From: Actinocorallia populi
GTDB lineage: Bacteria > Actinomycetota > Actinomycetes > Streptosporangiales > Streptosporangiaceae
Assembly (NCBI RefSeq): GCF_002995495.1
Contig: NZ_PVZV01000002.1
Span: forward strand, 248,001-312,000
DNA: 64,000 bases
Direction of reading: 5' to 3'
Position numbers and translations under genes: made by a program. Positions 11,930 to 17,964 of the stretch are shown piece by piece. Position 1 is the first letter of the stretch. Every line of letters starts with the position of its first letter. The notes beneath the pieces are model-generated. The model saw only the letters and a program-made list of their open reading frames with translations, made no database searches and was not told the origin of the DNA.

Positions 11930-12610
11930 GTGCGCCTTGTCATAGCCCGTTGCAGTGTCGACTACGTGGGGCGGCTCACCGCCCACCTCCCGCAGGCCAC
12001 CCGGCTCATCCTCATGAAGGCCGACGGCAGTGTGTCCATCCACGCCGACGACCGGGCCTTCAAACCGCTGAACTGGATGAACCCGCCCTGCAGCGTGCGG
12101 GAGGAGGCCTACACCGAACACGGGGCCGTCGCCCGCTGGACGGTCACCCACGGCAAGTCGGGGGAGCGGCTGATCCTCACCCTCTTCGAGGTGCTGCACG
12201 ACCACCGGCACGAGCTGGGGGTGGACCCGGGCCTGCAGAAGGACGGGGTGGAGGCGCACCTGCAGGAACTGCTCGCCGAGCACATCACCACGCTGGGAGA
12301 GGGCTACCGCCTGGTCCGGCGGGAGTACCCGACGGCGATCGGGCCGGTGGACATCCTGTGCCGGGACGCCTCGGGGGCGACGGTCGCGGTGGAGATCAAG
12401 CGCCGGGGCGAGATCGACGGGGTCGAGCAGCTCACCCGCTACCTGGAGCTGCTCAACCGTGACCCGCTGCTGGCGCCGGTCAAGGGCGTCTTCGCCGCCC
12501 AGGAGATCAAGCCGCAGGCACGGGTCCTCGCCCACGACCGGGGGATCGAGACCCTCACGCTGGACTACGACGCGCTGCGGGGGATCGAGCGCGAGGGCAC
12601 GCTCTTCTGA
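11930..12610 (+). CDS. nucS: Mismatch-specific endonuclease NucS/EndoMS
   Basis: NucS cuts both strands at mismatches and replaces MutS/MutL repair in most actinobacteria. The N-terminal DNA-binding domain starts [20 protein letters not shown], and the RecB-like nuclease core shows [16 protein letters not shown] (metal Asp), VAVEIKRRG (E-x-K) and the QLTRYLELL helix with Gln. I take GTG 11930 because it gives the usual N-terminus and 226 residues; an upstream GTG at 11903 would add nine residues. The C-terminus ends in EGTLF, resembling the clamp-binding tail of the family. Confidence 0.95.
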
Positions 12611-12616
12611 GCCGGG

Positions 12617-12637
12617 CGGGGGCGGTTCGCGCCCCCG
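12617..12637 (+). terminator. Hairpin after nucS
   Basis: The arms 12617-12624 (CGGGGGCG) and 12630-12637 pair perfectly around GTTCG, seven bases after the nucS stop. Confidence 0.6.
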
Positions 12638-12648
12638 TATGACGCAGA

Positions 12649-12682
12649 ACGGCCCCGGCGGGTGGACTCCCGCCGGGGCCGT
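12649..12682. terminator. Bidirectional hairpin between nucS and the secreted-protein cluster
   Basis: Perfect 14-bp arms lie at 12649-12662 and 12669-12682 with a 6-nt loop. It lies between convergent genes and can stop both nucS and the minus-strand gene that ends at 12709. Confidence 0.8.
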
Positions 12683-12708
12683 CTCGTCAGAGGCGGTTCC
12701 GCCACCGG

Positions 12709-13077
12709 TCAGCGGCGGCTGTTCTTGTTCTTCTTGTACTTGTAGTTGTAGATGTAGACGTTCTGGTGCTGCTGCTGCTGCAGCTTCTGCTGGCGGTTGC
12801 GCAGCGACCAGTCCTTGCGGTGATGGTTGTTGAAGTGGTGGCGCCTGTGGTGCCAGCGGTCCTCGCCCCGGCAGCCGCGGCGGTCGTGCCAGCGGCCGTT
12901 CCAGCCCTCCCAGTCGTCCTCCCAGCAGTCCCATTCCCACCAGTCGTCGCCGTATCCCGAGGCGGCGGTGACGGTGGCGGTCTGCGTGGTGGTCGCCGGA
13001 GTGGCGGCGGCCGGGGCCCCCATCAGGGACGCGCCGAGGACGGCCGCTCCGATGGCTCCGATGGTTTCCTTGATCAT
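12709..13077 (-). CDS. Small secreted Trp/His/Gln-rich protein (MIKET family member 1)
   Basis: I recognise no known domain. The 122-residue product starts with the leader shared by the whole cluster (MIKETIGAIGAAVLGASLMG) and a likely Ala-rich signal-peptidase site (GAPAAA). The mature part is very unusual: an acidic Trp-rich stretch (DDWWEWDCWEDDWEGW), then a His/Arg block (HHRRHHFNNHHR), a Gln/Lys stretch and a Tyr/Asn/Lys tail. The ATG at 13077 has GGAGGT five bases upstream; the frame opens 12 codons earlier without a ribosome site. The cluster's promoter box lies at 13128-13167. Export is inferred from the hydrophobic leader. Confidence 0.75.
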   Translation of the reverse strand: MIKETIGAIGAAVLGASLMGAPAAATPATTTQTATVTAASGYGDDWWEWDCWEDDWEGWNGRWHDRRGCRGEDRWHHRRHHFNNHHRKDWSLRNRQQKLQQQQHQNVYIYNYKYKKNKNSRR

Positions 13078-13127
13078 GTCTACCTCCAGTGATGAAGTGC
13101 GACTAAACGGCATCTGTCCACCATTGA

Positions 13128-13167
13128 GTATTGAGAAATGTCTAGTTCGATCTTCGATCAGTCAAAA
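13128..13167 (-). promoter_or_regulatory. Shared promoter box of family member 1
   Basis: On the minus strand the region reads TTTTGACT, 18 nt from the end of TTGACT to ACATTT, then CTCAATAC. The same TTGAC-N18-(A/G)CATTT-(C/T)C(A/G)nTAC pattern precedes four other cluster genes. Confidence 0.6.
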
Positions 13168-13259
13168 CTGGTAATGAGCCGGTTCCGTCGAGTGGAATGT
13201 CCTTTTTGTTAGGGTGAAACGGTGGTCGGAAAGGGCGACGGCCCGCAGGGAAAAGAAAA

Positions 13260-13292
13260 GGCCCCTCGGGAACACTCGGTTCCCGAGGGGCC
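13260..13292 (-). terminator. Rho-independent terminator of family member 2
   Basis: Perfect 14-bp arms lie at 13260-13273 and 13279-13292 with a 5-nt loop. On the minus strand the hairpin is followed by CTTTTCTTTT. Confidence 0.9.
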
Positions 13293-13329
13293 GGTCAGGC
13301 TGTCACCGTTGTGGCCTCACCTGCGGCTG

Positions 13330-13596
13330 TCAGTCGATGCGGAAGTGGATCCCGCCGTACTGGTTGCCGCTGTAGTTGTGGTTGAAGCTGCCCCAGCCGT
13401 GGTGGCCCCAGCCGTGGTGGCCCCAGCCGTGGTGGTGGCCCCAGCCGTGGTGGTAGTGGCCGCCGCACCAGTTGTCGCAGCCCGCCACGACGGTCTGGCT
13501 GCCGGTGGTGGTGCTGGCCTCGGCCGCGGTGGCCACCGCCGGGGCTCCGAGCAGGGCGGCGCCCAGGGCGACGACGCTGAACGTCTCCTTGATCAT
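13330..13596 (-). CDS. Small secreted His/Gly/Trp repeat protein (MIKET family member 2)
   Basis: The 88-residue product has the cluster leader (MIKETFSVVALGAALLGAPA) with a probable cleavage after ATAAEA or nearby. The mature part is short and contains CDNWC followed by four HHGWG-type repeats and a Tyr/Asn/Gly end, with 12 His residues in total. Such His-rich repeats often bind Ni, Zn or Cu, but that is inference. The ATG at 13596 has GGAGGTAGAC in front, identical to the preceding member. Its own promoter box (13647-13686) and terminator (13260-13292) make it a separate transcription unit. Confidence 0.75.
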   Translation of the reverse strand: MIKETFSVVALGAALLGAPAVATAAEASTTTGSQTVVAGCDNWCGGHYHHGWGHHHGWGHHGWGHHGWGSFNHNYSGNQYGGIHFRID

Positions 13597-13646
13597 GTCT
13601 ACCTCCAGAGTGAAGATGTGACTAAACGGCATCTGTCCGCCATTTG

Positions 13647-13686
13647 GTATTGGGAAATGTCCGAGCTGTTCTGCTGTTGGTCAAAA
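13647..13686 (-). promoter_or_regulatory. Shared promoter box of family member 2
   Basis: The minus strand shows TTTTGACC, 18 nt after TTGACC, then ACATTTCCCAATAC. The 5' leader that follows (GGACAGATGCCGTTTAGTC) is also shared with member 1. Confidence 0.6.
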
Positions 13687-13755
13687 CACCTGGCGGATCC
13701 CCTCTGTCTGCTGAAACACGCAGGTGCCGCGGAGTGATGCCTGAGAGAAGTAAAT

Positions 13756-13783
13756 CCCCCGGAAACCGAGAGGTCTCCGAGGG
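13756..13783 (-). terminator. Terminator of family member 3
   Basis: The minus-strand RNA pairs CCCTCGGAGACC with GGTTTCCGGGGG (12 bp, two G-U pairs) around a 4-nt loop, followed by ATTTACTT. The arms are at 13756-13767 and 13772-13783. Confidence 0.7.
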
Positions 13784-13864
13784 ACACGCGATCTGCTGCG
13801 AGCGGAACCCGGCAGATTCAACAATCAACTCTTCTTGGAGTCGTGCCTTCCGGCAGGGCGCCGT

Positions 13865-14386
13865 TCAGCGGCGGCGGTCGTGGTTCCTTCCGTTGTGGTT
13901 CCTGCCGTTGTCGTCCCTCCAGTCATGGTCGTTGTCGCCGTTCCAGTCGTGGCCGTTGTCCCACCAGTCCCGGTCGCTGCGGATCCGGAACCGGTCGCTG
14001 TAGTACGGGTAGTACCGCCAGCTCTCAGGGATGTAGATGCGGTAGGCGTGGTGCCGGCCGGCGCGGACGGACCAGTCGGCTCTCCCGCGCCAGTCGGTGC
14101 GTTCGCAGTCCACGGTCCTCCAGCCGCCCCAGCGCCTCATCTGCAGGCAGGCCTGGACGCGCTGCGCGGGCTCGCGGTCGTCGGCCTCGCGGACCCGGAT
14201 GTCGATGCGCCCCCACCGCCCCCGGCGCTCGGTGTCGATCCGGACGGTGAGCGCCTCCCGCCGCGCCGCGGAGGCGGCCTCGGCGGAGGCGGCGGAGACG
14301 GTGCGCTCGGCCGTGGCCGTCGCGGCCCCCGGCACGCTCGCCAACGTCATTCCGAGAACGGTGGCTCCCAGCGTTTCCTTGAACAT
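13865..14386 (-). CDS. Small secreted protein with two-Cys beta domain and charged tail (MIKET family member 3)
   Basis: The 173-residue product has the cluster leader in the variant MFKETLGATVLGMTL and a signal cleavage near ATATA. The mature part has the beta-strand pattern shared with members 4, 5 and 6: LTVRIDTERR, a conserved Cys in QACLQMRR, a second Cys in VDCERTDWRGRADW, and the AYRIYIP strand. A long tail rich in Asp, Asn, Trp and Arg follows (DWWDNGHDWNGDNDHDW). The ATG at 14386 has GGAGG upstream. No known catalytic motif is visible. Confidence 0.75.
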   Translation of the reverse strand: MFKETLGATVLGMTLASVPGAATATAERTVSAASAEAASAARREALTVRIDTERRGRWGRIDIRVREADDREPAQRVQACLQMRRWGGWRTVDCERTDWRGRADWSVRAGRHHAYRIYIPESWRYYPYYSDRFRIRSDRDWWDNGHDWNGDNDHDWRDDNGRNHNGRNHDRRR

Positions 14387-14439
14387 GTCGGCCTCCAGAT
14401 GCGAAGTGTGACTTCGGTACAACATCTGTCCGGCTTCGA

Positions 14440-14477
14440 GTAGCGAGAAATGCCATCTTCGCCCTGCGGTCGGTCAA
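14440..14477 (-). promoter_or_regulatory. Shared promoter box of family member 3
   Basis: The minus strand shows TTGACC, 18 nt, GCATTTCTCGCTAC, a slightly diverged copy of the cluster box. Confidence 0.5.
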
Positions 14478-14547
14478 GAAGGGAAGGAGATAGGAGGATA
14501 GGCGAGAAATGTCGTCTGTTTGGGCGGAGTTCGGCGGGGAACAAAAG

Positions 14548-14577
14548 GCCCCCGGAAACCGGACGGTCTCCGAGGGC
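14548..14577 (-). terminator. Rho-independent terminator of family member 4
   Basis: The arms 14548-14560 and 14565-14577 pair on the minus strand over 13 bp (G-U included) with a 4-nt loop, followed by CTTTTGTT. The sequence is almost the same as the member 3 terminator. Confidence 0.85.
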
Positions 14578-14603
14578 GCGGGATGGTCGTTCCGTCCCCC
14601 GTT

Positions 14604-14978
14604 TCACCCGCGTCCCAGGTCGGCGGGCTCGTCCGCGGCGAACGCCCTGCTGCGGAACCCCTCGTGGTCCCGGGTGGGCGGGATGAGGATCCGGTAGGTC
14701 TTCCGGGGATCGGCCAGCCAGGTGACACGGCCCTTCCCGTCGGTCTTCGCGCATTCGAGGGTCCGGAAGCCCTTCCTGCGTATCTGGAGGCAGACCCTGA
14801 GACCCTCCACCGGCTCCTTGTCCTCGTCCTTGACGATGGTCCGGACCCGGCTCAGATTCCCGAAGACCTCGGTCCAGACCCTGATCCGGACGGAGATCTC
14901 CTCTTTCGGGGCCGCGGCGGCGGGCGCGCTCACCAGCGTCGCGCCGAGGACCGCGGCCCCGAGCGCTTCCTTGATCAT
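14604..14978 (-). CDS. Small secreted two-Cys beta-domain protein (MIKET family member 4)
   Basis: The 124-residue product starts MIKEALGAAVLGATLVSAPA and is probably cleaved after AAAA. The mature domain (about residues 27-110) shares strands with members 3, 5 and 6: ISVRIRVWTEVFGNLSRVRT, VCLQIRRKGFRTLEC with two Cys, TDGKGRVTW and KTYRILIP, then a SRAF motif. The layout resembles an Ig/transthyretin-like beta sandwich (inference from the strand pattern). The promoter box in front is the most diverged copy of the six. Confidence 0.78.
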   Translation of the reverse strand: MIKEALGAAVLGATLVSAPAAAAPKEEISVRIRVWTEVFGNLSRVRTIVKDEDKEPVEGLRVCLQIRRKGFRTLECAKTDGKGRVTWLADPRKTYRILIPPTRDHEGFRSRAFAADEPADLGRG

Positions 14979-15104
14979 GTCTGCCTCCGGCTATGGAATT
15001 GCGACTAATGACCGTCTATCCGGTATTTAGGTATTAAGGGGTATCCGTTTGTCGCCGGGTCGATCAGATCGAGCGTGGGGCAGAAGGCCTTCGGGAAGGA
15101 GAAA

Positions 15105-15134
15105 GCCTCCGGAAACCGGTGGGCCTCCGGAGGC
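15105..15134 (-). terminator. Rho-independent terminator of family member 5
   Basis: The arms 15105-15112 and 15127-15134 (GCCTCCGG/CCGGAGGC) enclose the cluster motif GGTTTCC. On the minus strand TTTCTCCTTC follows. Confidence 0.7.
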
Positions 15135-15219
15135 GGGACCCCGGGCCCTGCCCGTGCCCTCGTCCCCTCGCCTTCGGTCGGGTCAGGGGCACGCGGTGAC
15201 GCCCCTGACCCGCACGGGC

Positions 15220-15627
15220 TCAGATGTCCAGGTTCTCGTCGGCGTCGAACGCGCGGCTGGTGAAGGAATTGAAGCCGCCCCCGGCGGGGACGCGGATCTG
15301 GTAAACCCGGTTGGGGTTCACGTCGAACCGGACACGTCCGTCGCTGCCGGTCAGCCCGCAGGTGAGGATGGGGAAGTTGCCGGCCGCGTTCCTCCTTCGC
15401 AGGCAGACGTTCTTGCCGGTGACCTTGTTGTCGTCCTCGTCCTCGAGCGTGACCCTGATGCGGCTCAGGTTTCCGACCACATCGGTCCTGACCCGGATGG
15501 CCACGGAGAGGTTCTCCTGCGCGGCGGCGGTACTGGGAAAGGCGCCCGGGGTCTGCGCCGCCGCCGTGGCCGGTACGCCGAACAGGGTCGCGCCGAGGAC
15601 GGCCACTCCGAGTGTTTCCTTGATCAT
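15220..15627 (-). CDS. Small secreted two-Cys beta-domain protein (MIKET family member 5)
   Basis: The 135-residue product begins MIKETLGVAVLGATLFGVPA and has a signal-type cleavage region ATAAAQ. The mature part matches member 4 most closely: NLSVAIRVRTDVVGNLSRIR, NVCLRRR and LTCGLTGSDGRVRF with two Cys, VYQIRVP, then FTSRAFDADENLDI. The ATG at 15627 has GGAGGCAGGCAAA in front; the frame runs upstream through the leader RNA without a ribosome site. The promoter box is at 15683-15720. Confidence 0.78.
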   Translation of the reverse strand: MIKETLGVAVLGATLFGVPATAAAQTPGAFPSTAAAQENLSVAIRVRTDVVGNLSRIRVTLEDEDDNKVTGKNVCLRRRNAAGNFPILTCGLTGSDGRVRFDVNPNRVYQIRVPAGGGFNSFTSRAFDADENLDI

Positions 15628-15682
15628 TTTGCCTGCCTCCAGATGCGGAAGTGTGACTAGTACGGCATCTGTCCGGCATTCG

Positions 15683-15720
15683 GTATGGGGAAATGTCTGC
15701 CTTTCGCTATTGTTGGTCAA
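15683..15720 (-). promoter_or_regulatory. Shared promoter box of family member 5
   Basis: The minus strand shows TTGACC, 18 nt, ACATTTCCCCATAC, followed by the conserved GGACAGATGCCG leader. Confidence 0.6.
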
Positions 15721-15816
15721 GAGTGATTTTGTGCGGTATGGTCCCGCAACTCTGTTGGATGAGGGTGAATTCTCGCTCTGATATCTATTGGGCTATTTGT
15801 CCGGCTTTGGCGGGTT

Positions 15817-16707
15817 TTATAGGGTGCTCGGCGGGACAAAGGGCACGCCGACGCGCTGGTGGGCCTGCTCGACGTAACGCTGGTGGACGCCGTGGCGGAG
15901 GGTCCTGGTGATGGCCTCGCCGGCGGCGCGGGCGGCCAGGGGGGCGAGCGGGGTGCGGGCGTGCAGGCCCAGCAGGCGCTTGGCCCAGCCGGGGAGCAGG
16001 TCGGTGGCGACCCGGCTGACGATCTGGGTGGTGACCTGGCTGGTCCTGTCGTCGCCGTAGGGGCCGCGCAGGAACCTGACGGCCTCCAGGGTCTCCTCGC
16101 TGACGGTCAGGCGGGGGCGCATCATGGCGAAGTAGTCCTCGACGTCGGCGCGGGACCTGGGGACGTCCGTGGCGCCGAGCTTCTCGGAGATCACCGCGTA
16201 CTGGGAGAAGTACTCGTCGAGGCCCTTCCCGTCCAGCGGTTTGGGGTGATAGCGCAGGTGGGCGCGGGCCGCCTGGTAGGCCTGGGTGGTGCCGGTCCAG
16301 ATGATGTCGGCGGACTCGGTCGCCGAGTACGGGCGGCCGTCGGGCATGGTGCCGTGCACCCGGGTGTGCATCTTCCGGACGATCCCCGCCAGTTTCTCGG
16401 CGACCGGGGTGGCGGCGAAGGACATGCCCCGGATGAAGCTGGCCGTGAAGCCGAGCCGTTTGATGGGGTCCTGGAGGTAGTTGGAATGCTGGTTGGTGCC
16501 GTGCGTGACCGGCTCGTTCAGGGTGCCGAGCAGCAGCCCGGAGACGCCGCCGAGCACGCCGGTGACGTCGGTGTGCACATACCAGAGCGCGGAGCCGGGC
16601 CCGAAGAGACCGGGGTCGCCCACCGGCTCGGTGTACTGCTCGCCGGGCAGGTGGGTGGCGGCCAGCAGGGACCAGTAGGAGTCGTCGATCATCTCGCGGA
16701 GGTTCAT
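15817..16707 (-). CDS. DUF2236 (MpaB/latex-clearing-like) oxygenase family protein
   Basis: The 296-residue helical protein belongs to the DUF2236 group, which includes haem-dependent rubber oxygenase Lcp and MpaB. Recognisable parts are GSALWYVHTDVTGVLGG, NEPVTHGTNQHSNYLQDP and RLGFTASFIRGMSF, with a Tyr/Arg-rich middle. It is all-alpha without a signal peptide. I choose the ATG at 16707 because GTGAGG lies nine bases upstream; in-frame ATG 16716 and TTG 16737 are alternatives, the latter inside an 18-bp inverted repeat. It interrupts the MIKET gene cluster; a TetR gene lies about 0.7 kb upstream. The substrate is unknown. Confidence 0.8.
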   Translation of the reverse strand: MNLREMIDDSYWSLLAATHLPGEQYTEPVGDPGLFGPGSALWYVHTDVTGVLGGVSGLLLGTLNEPVTHGTNQHSNYLQDPIKRLGFTASFIRGMSFAATPVAEKLAGIVRKMHTRVHGTMPDGRPYSATESADIIWTGTTQAYQAARAHLRYHPKPLDGKGLDEYFSQYAVISEKLGATDVPRSRADVEDYFAMMRPRLTVSEETLEAVRFLRGPYGDDRTSQVTTQIVSRVATDLLPGWAKRLLGLHARTPLAPLAARAAGEAITRTLRHGVHQRYVEQAHQRVGVPFVPPSTL

Positions 16708-16719
16708 GCGCCACATCCT

Positions 16720-16765
16720 CACACCGCCCTGAGACAAAGTGCAACACTTGTCTCAGGGCGGTGTG
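16720..16765. repeat. Perfect 18-bp inverted repeat upstream of the DUF2236 gene
   Basis: The arms 16720-16737 and 16748-16765 are exact reverse complements with a 10-nt centre. It lies 11 nt after the end of member 6 and its 3' arm abuts the DUF2236 ribosome site. It may be a terminator for member 6, an operator, or both. No U-run follows. Confidence 0.85.
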
Positions 16766-16775
16766 GTGGCGGGGA

Positions 16776-17228
16776 TCAGTCGGCGGACTTCTGCCAGCCG
16801 GTGTCCTCGGTCTCGTCGCCTTCGAACGACTCGCTGGTGTACGCGTCGAAGCCGCCCTGCTTCTCGATGTGGATGCGGTAGGTGCGCGCGGGAACGGTGA
16901 TGGTCGCCTTGACGCTTCCCTGGTCGTCGGTGGTCCCGCAGGGCTGGAACGGAGGTTCGGGCAGGACGTTCGCCCACTGGCGGCCGGTCCTCGCCTGGAG
17001 GCACATCCGGACCTGGACGGGGTTCTTCTCGCTGTCCCTGACCTGGATCCTGACCGATGTCCGGCCCTGTGCGCCGGTGCCGGGCTTGACCCTGATCCTG
17101 ACGAAGAGGTCGTCGCTCTGCCGCACGGCGGCTTCGGCGGCGCCGGGGGCCGCTGCGGCAGTCGGTGCGTAGGGTGCGCCGAGCAGGGACCCCCCGAGGA
17201 CGGCGGCGCCGAGTGCTTCTCTGATCAT
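16776..17228 (-). CDS. Small secreted two-Cys beta-domain protein (MIKET family member 6)
   Basis: The 150-residue product has the leader variant MIREALGAAVLGGSLLGAPY and probable cleavage in TAAAAPGA. The mature domain follows the family pattern: LFVRIRVKPG, VRMCLQARTG, FQPCGTTDDQGSV with two Cys, RTYRIHIE, and the end motif DAYTSESFEGDE, which parallels FTSRAFDADE in member 5. The ATG at 17228 is preceded by GGAGGAAGAG. The promoter box is at 17284-17322. A frame with an ATG at 17501 is far longer but would span the promoter box and is rejected. Confidence 0.77.
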   Translation of the reverse strand: MIREALGAAVLGGSLLGAPYAPTAAAAPGAAEAAVRQSDDLFVRIRVKPGTGAQGRTSVRIQVRDSEKNPVQVRMCLQARTGRQWANVLPEPPFQPCGTTDDQGSVKATITVPARTYRIHIEKQGGFDAYTSESFEGDETEDTGWQKSAD

Positions 17229-17283
17229 CTCTCTTCCTCCGGTGGGCGGAAGTGCGGCTGAGGAGAGTTCTGCTCGACGGGGC

Positions 17284-17322
17284 GTATTGGGAAATGTCCT
17301 TTTTGTGATGTTGTTGGTCAAA
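17284..17322 (-). promoter_or_regulatory. Shared promoter box of family member 6
   Basis: The minus strand shows TTTGACC, 18 nt after TTGACC, then ACATTTCCCAATAC. It is 78 nt from the divergent TetR gene start. Confidence 0.6.
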
Positions 17323-17400
17323 GGTGCCGCGATGCTCCCGGGGCCTGCCGGGGCGAGCAGGGAAAGGGCCGGAGGCGGCCCCGGGGCTAGGCTGTGGGCC

Positions 17401-17964
17401 ATGTCGCCCCAGGAGAAGATCATCGATGCGGCGGAGGAGTGCTTCGCCCGGTTCGGAGTGGCCAAGACGACGGTCGAGGACGTCGCGCACGCGGCGGGCA
17501 TGTCGCGGGCGACGCTCTACCGCAACTTCTCCGGAGGCAGGGACGAGCTGATCCTGGCGGTCTTCCTGCGCGACGTCGGGCGCTTCCTCGACCGCATGGG
17601 GGAGCGGCTGCCGCAGGAGTTCACCCCCGCCGAGGCCGTCGTGGCCGGGGTGATGGACGCGGTGGAGTTCGTGCAGGGCGAGCCGCGCTTCGCCGCGCTG
17701 TTCGTCCCCGAGGCGGTCGGGCACACCCACAAAGTGGTCAGCGCCGCCTCGCAGCGCGCCCTGGACCTGTGCGCCGCACGGGTGGAGCCCTACTTCGCCG
17801 CCGCCCAGCAGGCCGGCCTGCTCCGTCCCGAGCTGGACGTCGCGGGGACGGTGGAGTTCCTCTTCCGGATGATCGCCTCGCTCAGCCTCGCCCCGCTGGT
17901 CCGGGACGACGAGGAGACCCGGCGGTTCCTGCGCCTGTACGTCGTGCCCGCCCTCGTTCCCTGA
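17401..17964 (+). CDS. TetR/AcrR family transcriptional regulator
   Basis: The 187-residue repressor-type protein has the TetR helix-turn-helix at about 8-48 (IIDAAEECFARFGVAKTTVE, then AAGMSRATLYRNF) and an all-helical ligand domain with Pro/Ala-rich C-terminus. It is divergent from the MIKET family member 6 gene and just upstream of the M50 protease. Local TetR proteins often control a neighbouring oxidase or hydrolase; the DUF2236 gene and the 16.72-kb inverted repeat are plausible targets (inference). The ligand is unknown. Confidence 0.9.
   Translation: MSPQEKIIDAAEECFARFGVAKTTVEDVAHAAGMSRATLYRNFSGGRDELILAVFLRDVGRFLDRMGERLPQEFTPAEAVVAGVMDAVEFVQGEPRFAALFVPEAVGHTHKVVSAASQRALDLCAARVEPYFAAAQQAGLLRPELDVAGTVEFLFRMIASLSLAPLVRDDEETRRFLRLYVVPALVP

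Follow-up and report, generated by a model that had tools for sequence, protein, structure and literature searches.

The locus considered here raises a question about how bacterial secreted proteins diversify. A stretch of 64,000 nucleotides from Actinocorallia populi (contig NZ_PVZV01000002.1, positions 248,001 to 312,000; hereafter the window, in which coordinates below are given unless another locus is named) contains at 12709-17228 six tandem minus-strand genes, g1 to g6, whose products start with almost the same export leader and continue into sharply different mature parts. The first-pass annotation of the window had proposed a duplicating cassette into which different mature sequences are placed. 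In our study, the genes look like a small family of old duplicates rather than a cargo-swapping machine. The best overall explanation, favoured with moderate confidence, is that a single gene for a small secreted protein underwent an old tandem expansion in this lineage, with later divergence of the copies and a possible role at the cell surface. The parts of this explanation differ in strength: expansion and divergence are considered likely, metal binding by g2-like tails is suggested tentatively by their composition, and a surface or scaffold role is more tentative still.

The array and its export leader

The six genes and the one gene that stands among them are as follows.

12709-13077, minus strand: g1, export leader and then a Trp/Asp-, His-, Gln- and Lys/Asn/Tyr-rich mature part; two Cys
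13330-13596, minus strand: g2, export leader and HHGWG-repeat mature part; two Cys
13865-14386, minus strand: g3, export leader, two-Cys beta domain and then a Trp/Asp/His/Asn/Arg-rich tail (both modules)
14604-14978, minus strand: g4, export leader and two-Cys beta domain (the domain used for structure prediction)
15220-15627, minus strand: g5, export leader and two-Cys beta domain
15817-16737, minus strand: mpaB, an MpaB/Lcp-family oxygenase-like gene within the array, with an ATG at 16707; outside the secreted family
16776-17228, minus strand: g6, export leader and two-Cys beta domain; mpaB stands between it and g1-g5

The observation made earlier (six genes, leader, promoter boxes and terminators) is real and far above chance. 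Open reading frames (ORFs) bear out the six tandem genes, and a leader of MIKETLGAAVLGATL type is found at the start of all six proteins, together with the odd acidic residue that had been pointed out in its n-region, a Glu seen as Lys-Glu at positions 3-4 (Arg-Glu in g6). The features of a Sec signal (positive start, hydrophobic core and small-residue cleavage site) are visible by eye in six of six, with a single Lys/Arg plus the Glu in the first four residues, and from these we infer that the leader is Sec-type and that the proteins are exported. Counted after residue 24, the mature parts comprise 64-149 residues and every one of them, those of g1 and g2 included, holds exactly two Cys. They differ as sharply as had been claimed: g1 and g2 fail to align with the domain of g3-g6, and within a g3-g6 pair only 26-45 of 100-120 mature residues are identical, against 10-15 of 19-20 leader residues.

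A two-Cys beta domain in four members

A domain with two invariant Cys is common to g3-g6, as the first-pass annotation had stated, and a structure was predicted for that of g4. The prediction is a confident beta-sandwich (predicted local distance difference test score 86, predicted template modelling score 0.77) with the Cys in neighbouring strands. On this model the mature domain of g3-g6 is an ordinary beta-sandwich, and each protein would probably carry one disulfide, formed in g4-g6 by a cross-strand Cys pair. The g3-g6 profile matches single genes of two sister genomes, G001 (E 1.7e-10) and G002 (E 8.1e-11), and a further locus of the own genome, L006 (E 4.7e-7). These three and g3-g6 show significant homology and retain both Cys (seven of seven aligned members), and they can be taken as one family.

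No Pfam or NCBIfam family was found above its curated cut-off for the array proteins, PHROGs gave nothing, PADLOC was empty for g3-g6, and Foldseek with the predicted g4 domain returned no match at E<=0.001. The earlier statement that no described family fits is upheld to this extent. Neocarzinostatin-type carriers and chaplins were considered and dropped; neither is among the Pfam matches at E<=1, although this is no exclusion. The portions of the literature covered by our search contain no description of this secreted family. As to the earlier question of whether the mature domains belong to a known single family, four of the six do form one family, and that family is unnamed.

Distribution and the gene in sister genomes

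In both sister genomes (G002 being the match to Actinocorallia sp. API 0066) a single two-Cys gene lies exactly between nucS and mpaB, and it keeps the TTGAC-to-GGACAG distance of the window copies. This single syntenic gene points to a lineage expansion in the genome of the window; with four mature parts being one domain, divergence from one ancestor explains most of the array. Among ORFs filtered by third-position GC, no such gene was found beside mpaB in Actinomadura atramentaria, Thermomonospora catenispora, Actinoallomurus purpureus or an uncultured Thermomonosporaceae metagenome-assembled genome (L052), nor was a two-Cys gene found there in G021, which may be one genome with the latter.

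Among 71 genomes from 68 genera of the taxonomic family (at most the best 59 candidates per genome, G001 being outside the sample), two matched at E<=0.001, both from this genus (1 of 68 genera). Among 200 genomes (best 19 candidates per genome), five matched at E<=1e-4. Three of these belong to this genus; the other two are weak matches from outside it (L018 and L019), which look by eye like generic immunoglobulin-like proteins and were left out of the family. Few matches in both samples mean that the family is either narrow or fast-evolving, the limits on candidates per genome permitting nothing stronger. A related-locus search with the family alignment gave no relatives outside the genus. 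MpaB was found at E<=1e-40 in 4 of 41 genomes, and a contig scan with the MpaB alignment gave five loci.

The members without the domain and a possible role in metal handling

The leader and the two Cys are common to g1, g2 and the rest, and the upstream region is shared with other members; the two-Cys profile touches g1 and g2 in the leader only (profile positions 1-35 and 1-31). In g2 there are HHGWG repeats (repeat family D7) and 12 His within a 64-residue stretch. A related leader, a related upstream element or both occur at two further places of the own genome, C1 near 242.8 kb (L008) and C1 near 65.7 kb (L005). The first matches g1 (E 5e-8), g2 (E 0.002) and g5 (E 0.005), the matches including the leader, and its upstream element is found at E 7.5e-4 with a model built without it. 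At the second (positions 1147-1662 of L005) promoter and 5' untranslated region (UTR) are well kept and two-Cys remnants are present, the frame being apparently broken or much shortened. When tail pairs were compared with 500 composition shuffles, only two of ten stood out, g2 with L008 (0/500) and the g3 tail with L008 (4/500). g1 and g2 may be relatives that have lost the beta domain, derived from a g3-like protein; this is preferred but unproven.

L008 itself corresponds to the tail alone and is rich in His, Lys and Trp. It adjoins a 416-residue ORF of ADP-ribosyltransferase type by look.

The composition of the tails brings in the possibility that the whole array handles metal, the His/Trp-rich members being extracellular Cu/Zn binders. 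The HHGWG repeats of g2 would then act like the copper-binding octarepeats of the prion protein, which have an HGGGW core and are a known Cu/Zn site, and g1 and L008 are His/Trp-rich as well. However, after residue 24 His is absent from g5 and occurs only once in g4 and once in g6, and the adjoining nucS, mpaB and tetR genes hint at no metal function, no search for metal-responsive operators having been made. A metal system made up of the whole array is hence rather unlikely, whereas metal binding is plausible for g2 with its HHGWG repeats and for the His-rich g1 and L008, and not for g4-g6.

Age of the duplications and the capture of unrelated sequences

The 15 leader pairs offer 172 comparisons of codons that encode the same residue. 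The two codons are identical in 94 of them, and the codon usage of these genes predicts 93.9. Silent sites at expectation suggest that the duplications are old and that the leaders are alike through selection on the protein; the leader silent sites look saturated. On these counts a recent copying of the cassette was rejected, with the g1-g5 leader pair as the exception (12 of 14 identical codons, 7.8 expected). In the mature parts of g3-g6, silent identity is 151 of 214, against 132.3 expected.

A module of promoter, UTR and leader might also spread by duplication or conversion and fuse to unrelated mature sequences. The unusual likeness of the g1 and g5 leaders at silent sites would agree with such capture, and so would the near identity of g1 and g2 directly before the ATG (41 of 44 aligned bases), though their mature parts fail to align, and the unproven homology of the g1 tail to the others. 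Nevertheless, the leader pairs overall are at silent-site expectation, four of the six mature parts are one domain that traces to a single-copy syntenic gene, g3 combines both kinds of mature sequence and none of the six mature parts departs from the number of two Cys. Capture is therefore considered improbable. What stands of the cassette originally proposed is a set of paralogues, putatively exported and probably expressed together, that have control region and leader in common and differ strongly in the mature part; an active duplicating cassette that takes up unrelated sequences is not supported, in view of the leader silent sites and the common domain of four members.

The control region

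Upstream regions and terminator-like hairpins were located as follows.

13078-13165, minus strand: g1 promoter box and 5' UTR, from TTGAC to the last base before the ATG
13597-13684, minus strand: g2 promoter box and 5' UTR (leave-one-out profile and repeat family D2)
14387-14477, minus strand: g3 promoter box and 5' UTR (leave-one-out profile and repeat family D2)
14979-15070, minus strand: g4 upstream region, UTR half similar, promoter half diverged and without TTGAC
15628-15720, minus strand: g5 promoter box and 5' UTR (leave-one-out profile and repeat family D2)
17229-17321, minus strand: g6 promoter box and 5' UTR, promoter half similar, without the GGAYAG element
13260-13292, minus strand: terminator-like hairpin after g2 (repeat family D5)
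13754-13785, minus strand: terminator-like hairpin after g3 (repeat family D5)
14548-14577, minus strand: terminator-like hairpin after g4 (repeat family D5)
15105-15134, minus strand: terminator-like hairpin after g5 (repeat family D5)

Five promoter boxes at fixed spacing had been reported, and five copies were found (g1, g2, g3, g5 and g6; repeat family D2), with TTGAC 88-93 bases before the ATG. Leave-one-out nhmmer recovers five of the six upstream regions (E 2e-16 for g1, 2e-17 for g2, 4e-12 for g3, 2e-16 for g5 and 2e-7 for g6) and misses that of g4, the best background match in the window or the reversed window being at E 0.61. In the last 45 bases before the ATG, 330 of 417 aligned columns (79%) are identical over the ten pairs of g1-g5, with shuffle z of 6.3-18; g4 shares 66-76% of aligned columns with g1, g2, g3 and g5 there, and g6 has diverged. 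Likeness in these bases while the leader silent sites are at expectation argues for selection on the control region or for local gene conversion, and suggests that the last 45 bases are a constrained control element. Seven of nine upstream regions (g1, g2, g3, g5, L005 and the sister loci L013 and L014) have the same TTGAC-to-GGACAG distance of exactly 46 bases, the exceptions being g4, without TTGAC, and g6, without GGAYAG. A model of the six window upstream regions also finds L005 at E 2.7e-9. The four related terminators of the earlier description are the hairpins 3' of g2-g5; in 12300-17700, both strands taken together, there are 10 terminator-like sites (some overlapping), against 2.7 in shuffles.

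It could be speculated that the array is a bacterial counterpart of venom-like gene families, in which a single constrained control region and leader serve secreted modules that come, go and are exchanged, with a dedicated cis element, made up of TTGAC, GGACAG exactly 46 bases on and the ribosome site, that might be recognised by a regulator of its own or work as a switch in the 5' UTR. We consider this doubtful. An RNA switch in the UTR was rejected: the consensus fold of seven sequences has eight pairs, none with a two-sided change, no Rfam search having been made. Folds of single UTRs range in z from -4.18 (L013) to +0.83 (L005), and the window copies differ in shape. A wider regulon was likewise rejected. 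With one model (R1), the best 150 of 954 first-look candidates in the own genome gave only the seven training regions, L008 (E 0.07) and, a little further upstream there, another weak match (E 1.17). A second model (R2) gave, beyond its training regions, L008 (E 0.0165) and others at E 0.088 or worse, of which the three that were read (L064, L065 and L073) look like coding sequence of ATP-binding cassette transporters read antisense. Of the strict sequence patterns for the upstream element, one matched g2, g3 and g5 only and another g2 and g5 only.

Two side observations concern this region. The sister 5' UTRs (L013 2017-2075 and L014 1335-1392) form the same hairpin over the ribosome site (-21.9 and -19.9 kcal/mol, z -4.18 and -1.88), which is not common to the window copies. 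Degenerate second promoter boxes lie at 13186-13203 and 14498-14515 (minus strand), exactly 59 bases upstream of the g1 and g3 boxes; they score 9.5 and 8.2 against 7-13 at unrelated places in the window, and chance may account for them.

Proposed history of the array

The history that we favour, an old expansion followed by divergence, would have started from a single gene between nucS and mpaB, as is found in the sisters. In the genome of the window this gene would have been duplicated to six copies, with g6 on the far side of mpaB, and to dispersed copies elsewhere. Every copy would have retained its own promoter, a constrained 5' UTR and the Sec-type leader, and g2-g5 also a related terminator, so that co-expression from separate transcripts is probable. 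Divergence would have been fast in the mature part. In g4-g6 this part would consist of the beta-sandwich with one cross-strand Cys pair only, in g3 of the beta-sandwich plus a polar Trp/His-rich tail and in g1 and g2 of low-complexity sequence only. After Sec export, with one disulfide each, the products would be small binding or scaffold proteins without enzymatic activity, placed on the cell surface or close to it, and their His/Trp tails may bind transition metals or envelope polymers.

Several points weigh against this history. The two sister genomes are not independent of each other, and the monophyly of g3-g6 (support 79/87) is not firm. Silent identity in the mature parts is slightly over expectation, and the age estimate is accordingly rough. 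The model of the six window upstream regions misses the sister ones, with no match in L013 and only an unrelated place in L014 (E 0.37), so that with the sisters only two short motifs and their distance are held in common. Moreover, a sigma-70 consensus scan detected no promoter in the region, and RNA structure in the UTR is without covariation support. The g1 tail does not rise above the shuffles (62/500 with the g3 tail and 85/500 with L008); tail homology being weak and the L008 matches including the leader, g1 and g2 might descend from unrelated sequences to which the leader was added.

Neighbouring genes

The gene between g5 and g6 was identified as MpaB/Lcp-type by the Pfam scan (PF09995, E 6e-43). 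It had not been mentioned in the first-pass annotation, and owing to its position the array is properly described as 5+1. The array is flanked by nucS (identified by Pfam) on one side and by a plus-strand tetR-like gene on the other; the label of the latter (17394-17964) is a reading of the ORF, for which PADLOC has no match. In this genome g6 thus stands between tetR and mpaB. At 16720-16765, between g6 and mpaB, there is a perfect 18-nt inverted repeat with the core TGAGACAA...TTGTCTCA, which is probably the operator of the adjoining tetR-like regulator. A similar palindrome lies 5' of mpaB in L014 and L049, a less perfect one in L050, and none was seen in L053.

Relation to known systems and significance

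The nearest known domains were found well below their cut-offs. CarboxypepD_reg (PF13620, cut-off 32.3) scores 18.1 bits with g4 (E 0.0035) and 14.9 bits with g5, the other four proteins being unlisted, and Big_1 (PF02369, cut-off 34.9) scores 18.2 bits with g5 (E 0.0027) and 12.4 bits with g4. A weak likeness to transthyretin-like proteins is suggested by the predicted beta-sandwich of g4 and by the best PDB sequence match, 2gpz at E 0.007. In case of the hydroxyisourate hydrolase/transthyretin-like group, g3 reaches 13.1 bits against the PRK15036 equivalog cut-off of 217. Hydroxyisourate hydrolases end in a C-terminal YRGS, which was not seen by eye in g3-g6. Alpha-2-macroglobulin MG/NIE domains and CnaB domains (SpyCatcher) are also counted among the nearest known systems. 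Unlike the transthyretin-like, CarboxypepD_reg and Big_1 domains, the present one is a stand-alone secreted domain with a two-Cys hairpin.

In its pattern of evolution the array resembles the conopeptide and frog-skin antimicrobial peptide families, which are gene families with a constant leader and a variable mature part. It differs from them in being bacterial, in its larger proteins, in the common fold of four of the six and in the keeping of the promoter and UTR as well. That its products are diversifying secreted effectors, bacteriocin-like and aimed at competitors as in those families, would agree with the constant leader and control region, the diverged mature parts and the apparent copy loss, but is very unlikely with an ordinary beta-sandwich as mature domain, no toxin or defence family above threshold and no immunity-like gene recognised between the members among the ORFs (no systematic search). 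Precursors of ribosomally synthesised and post-translationally modified peptides (RiPPs), such as prochlorosins, likewise have a constant leader, a variable downstream part and many paralogues; here, in contrast, the leader is probably of Sec type and the mature parts are of the length given above. No RiPP modification enzyme was recognised beside the array (nucS, mpaB and tetR only), no RiPP-specific model search having been made.

The array is a genuine, well-ordered and slightly unusual gene family. On the present evidence it does not reveal a new mechanism and can be explained by tandem duplications long ago, after which the copies diverged while their control region stayed under constraint. 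It yields a secreted beta-sandwich family that has no name as yet, and a candidate for a cis element. Our study presents a compact bacterial case of what is seen in venom and antimicrobial peptide genes, where a diverging product stands under a conserved control region and export tag.

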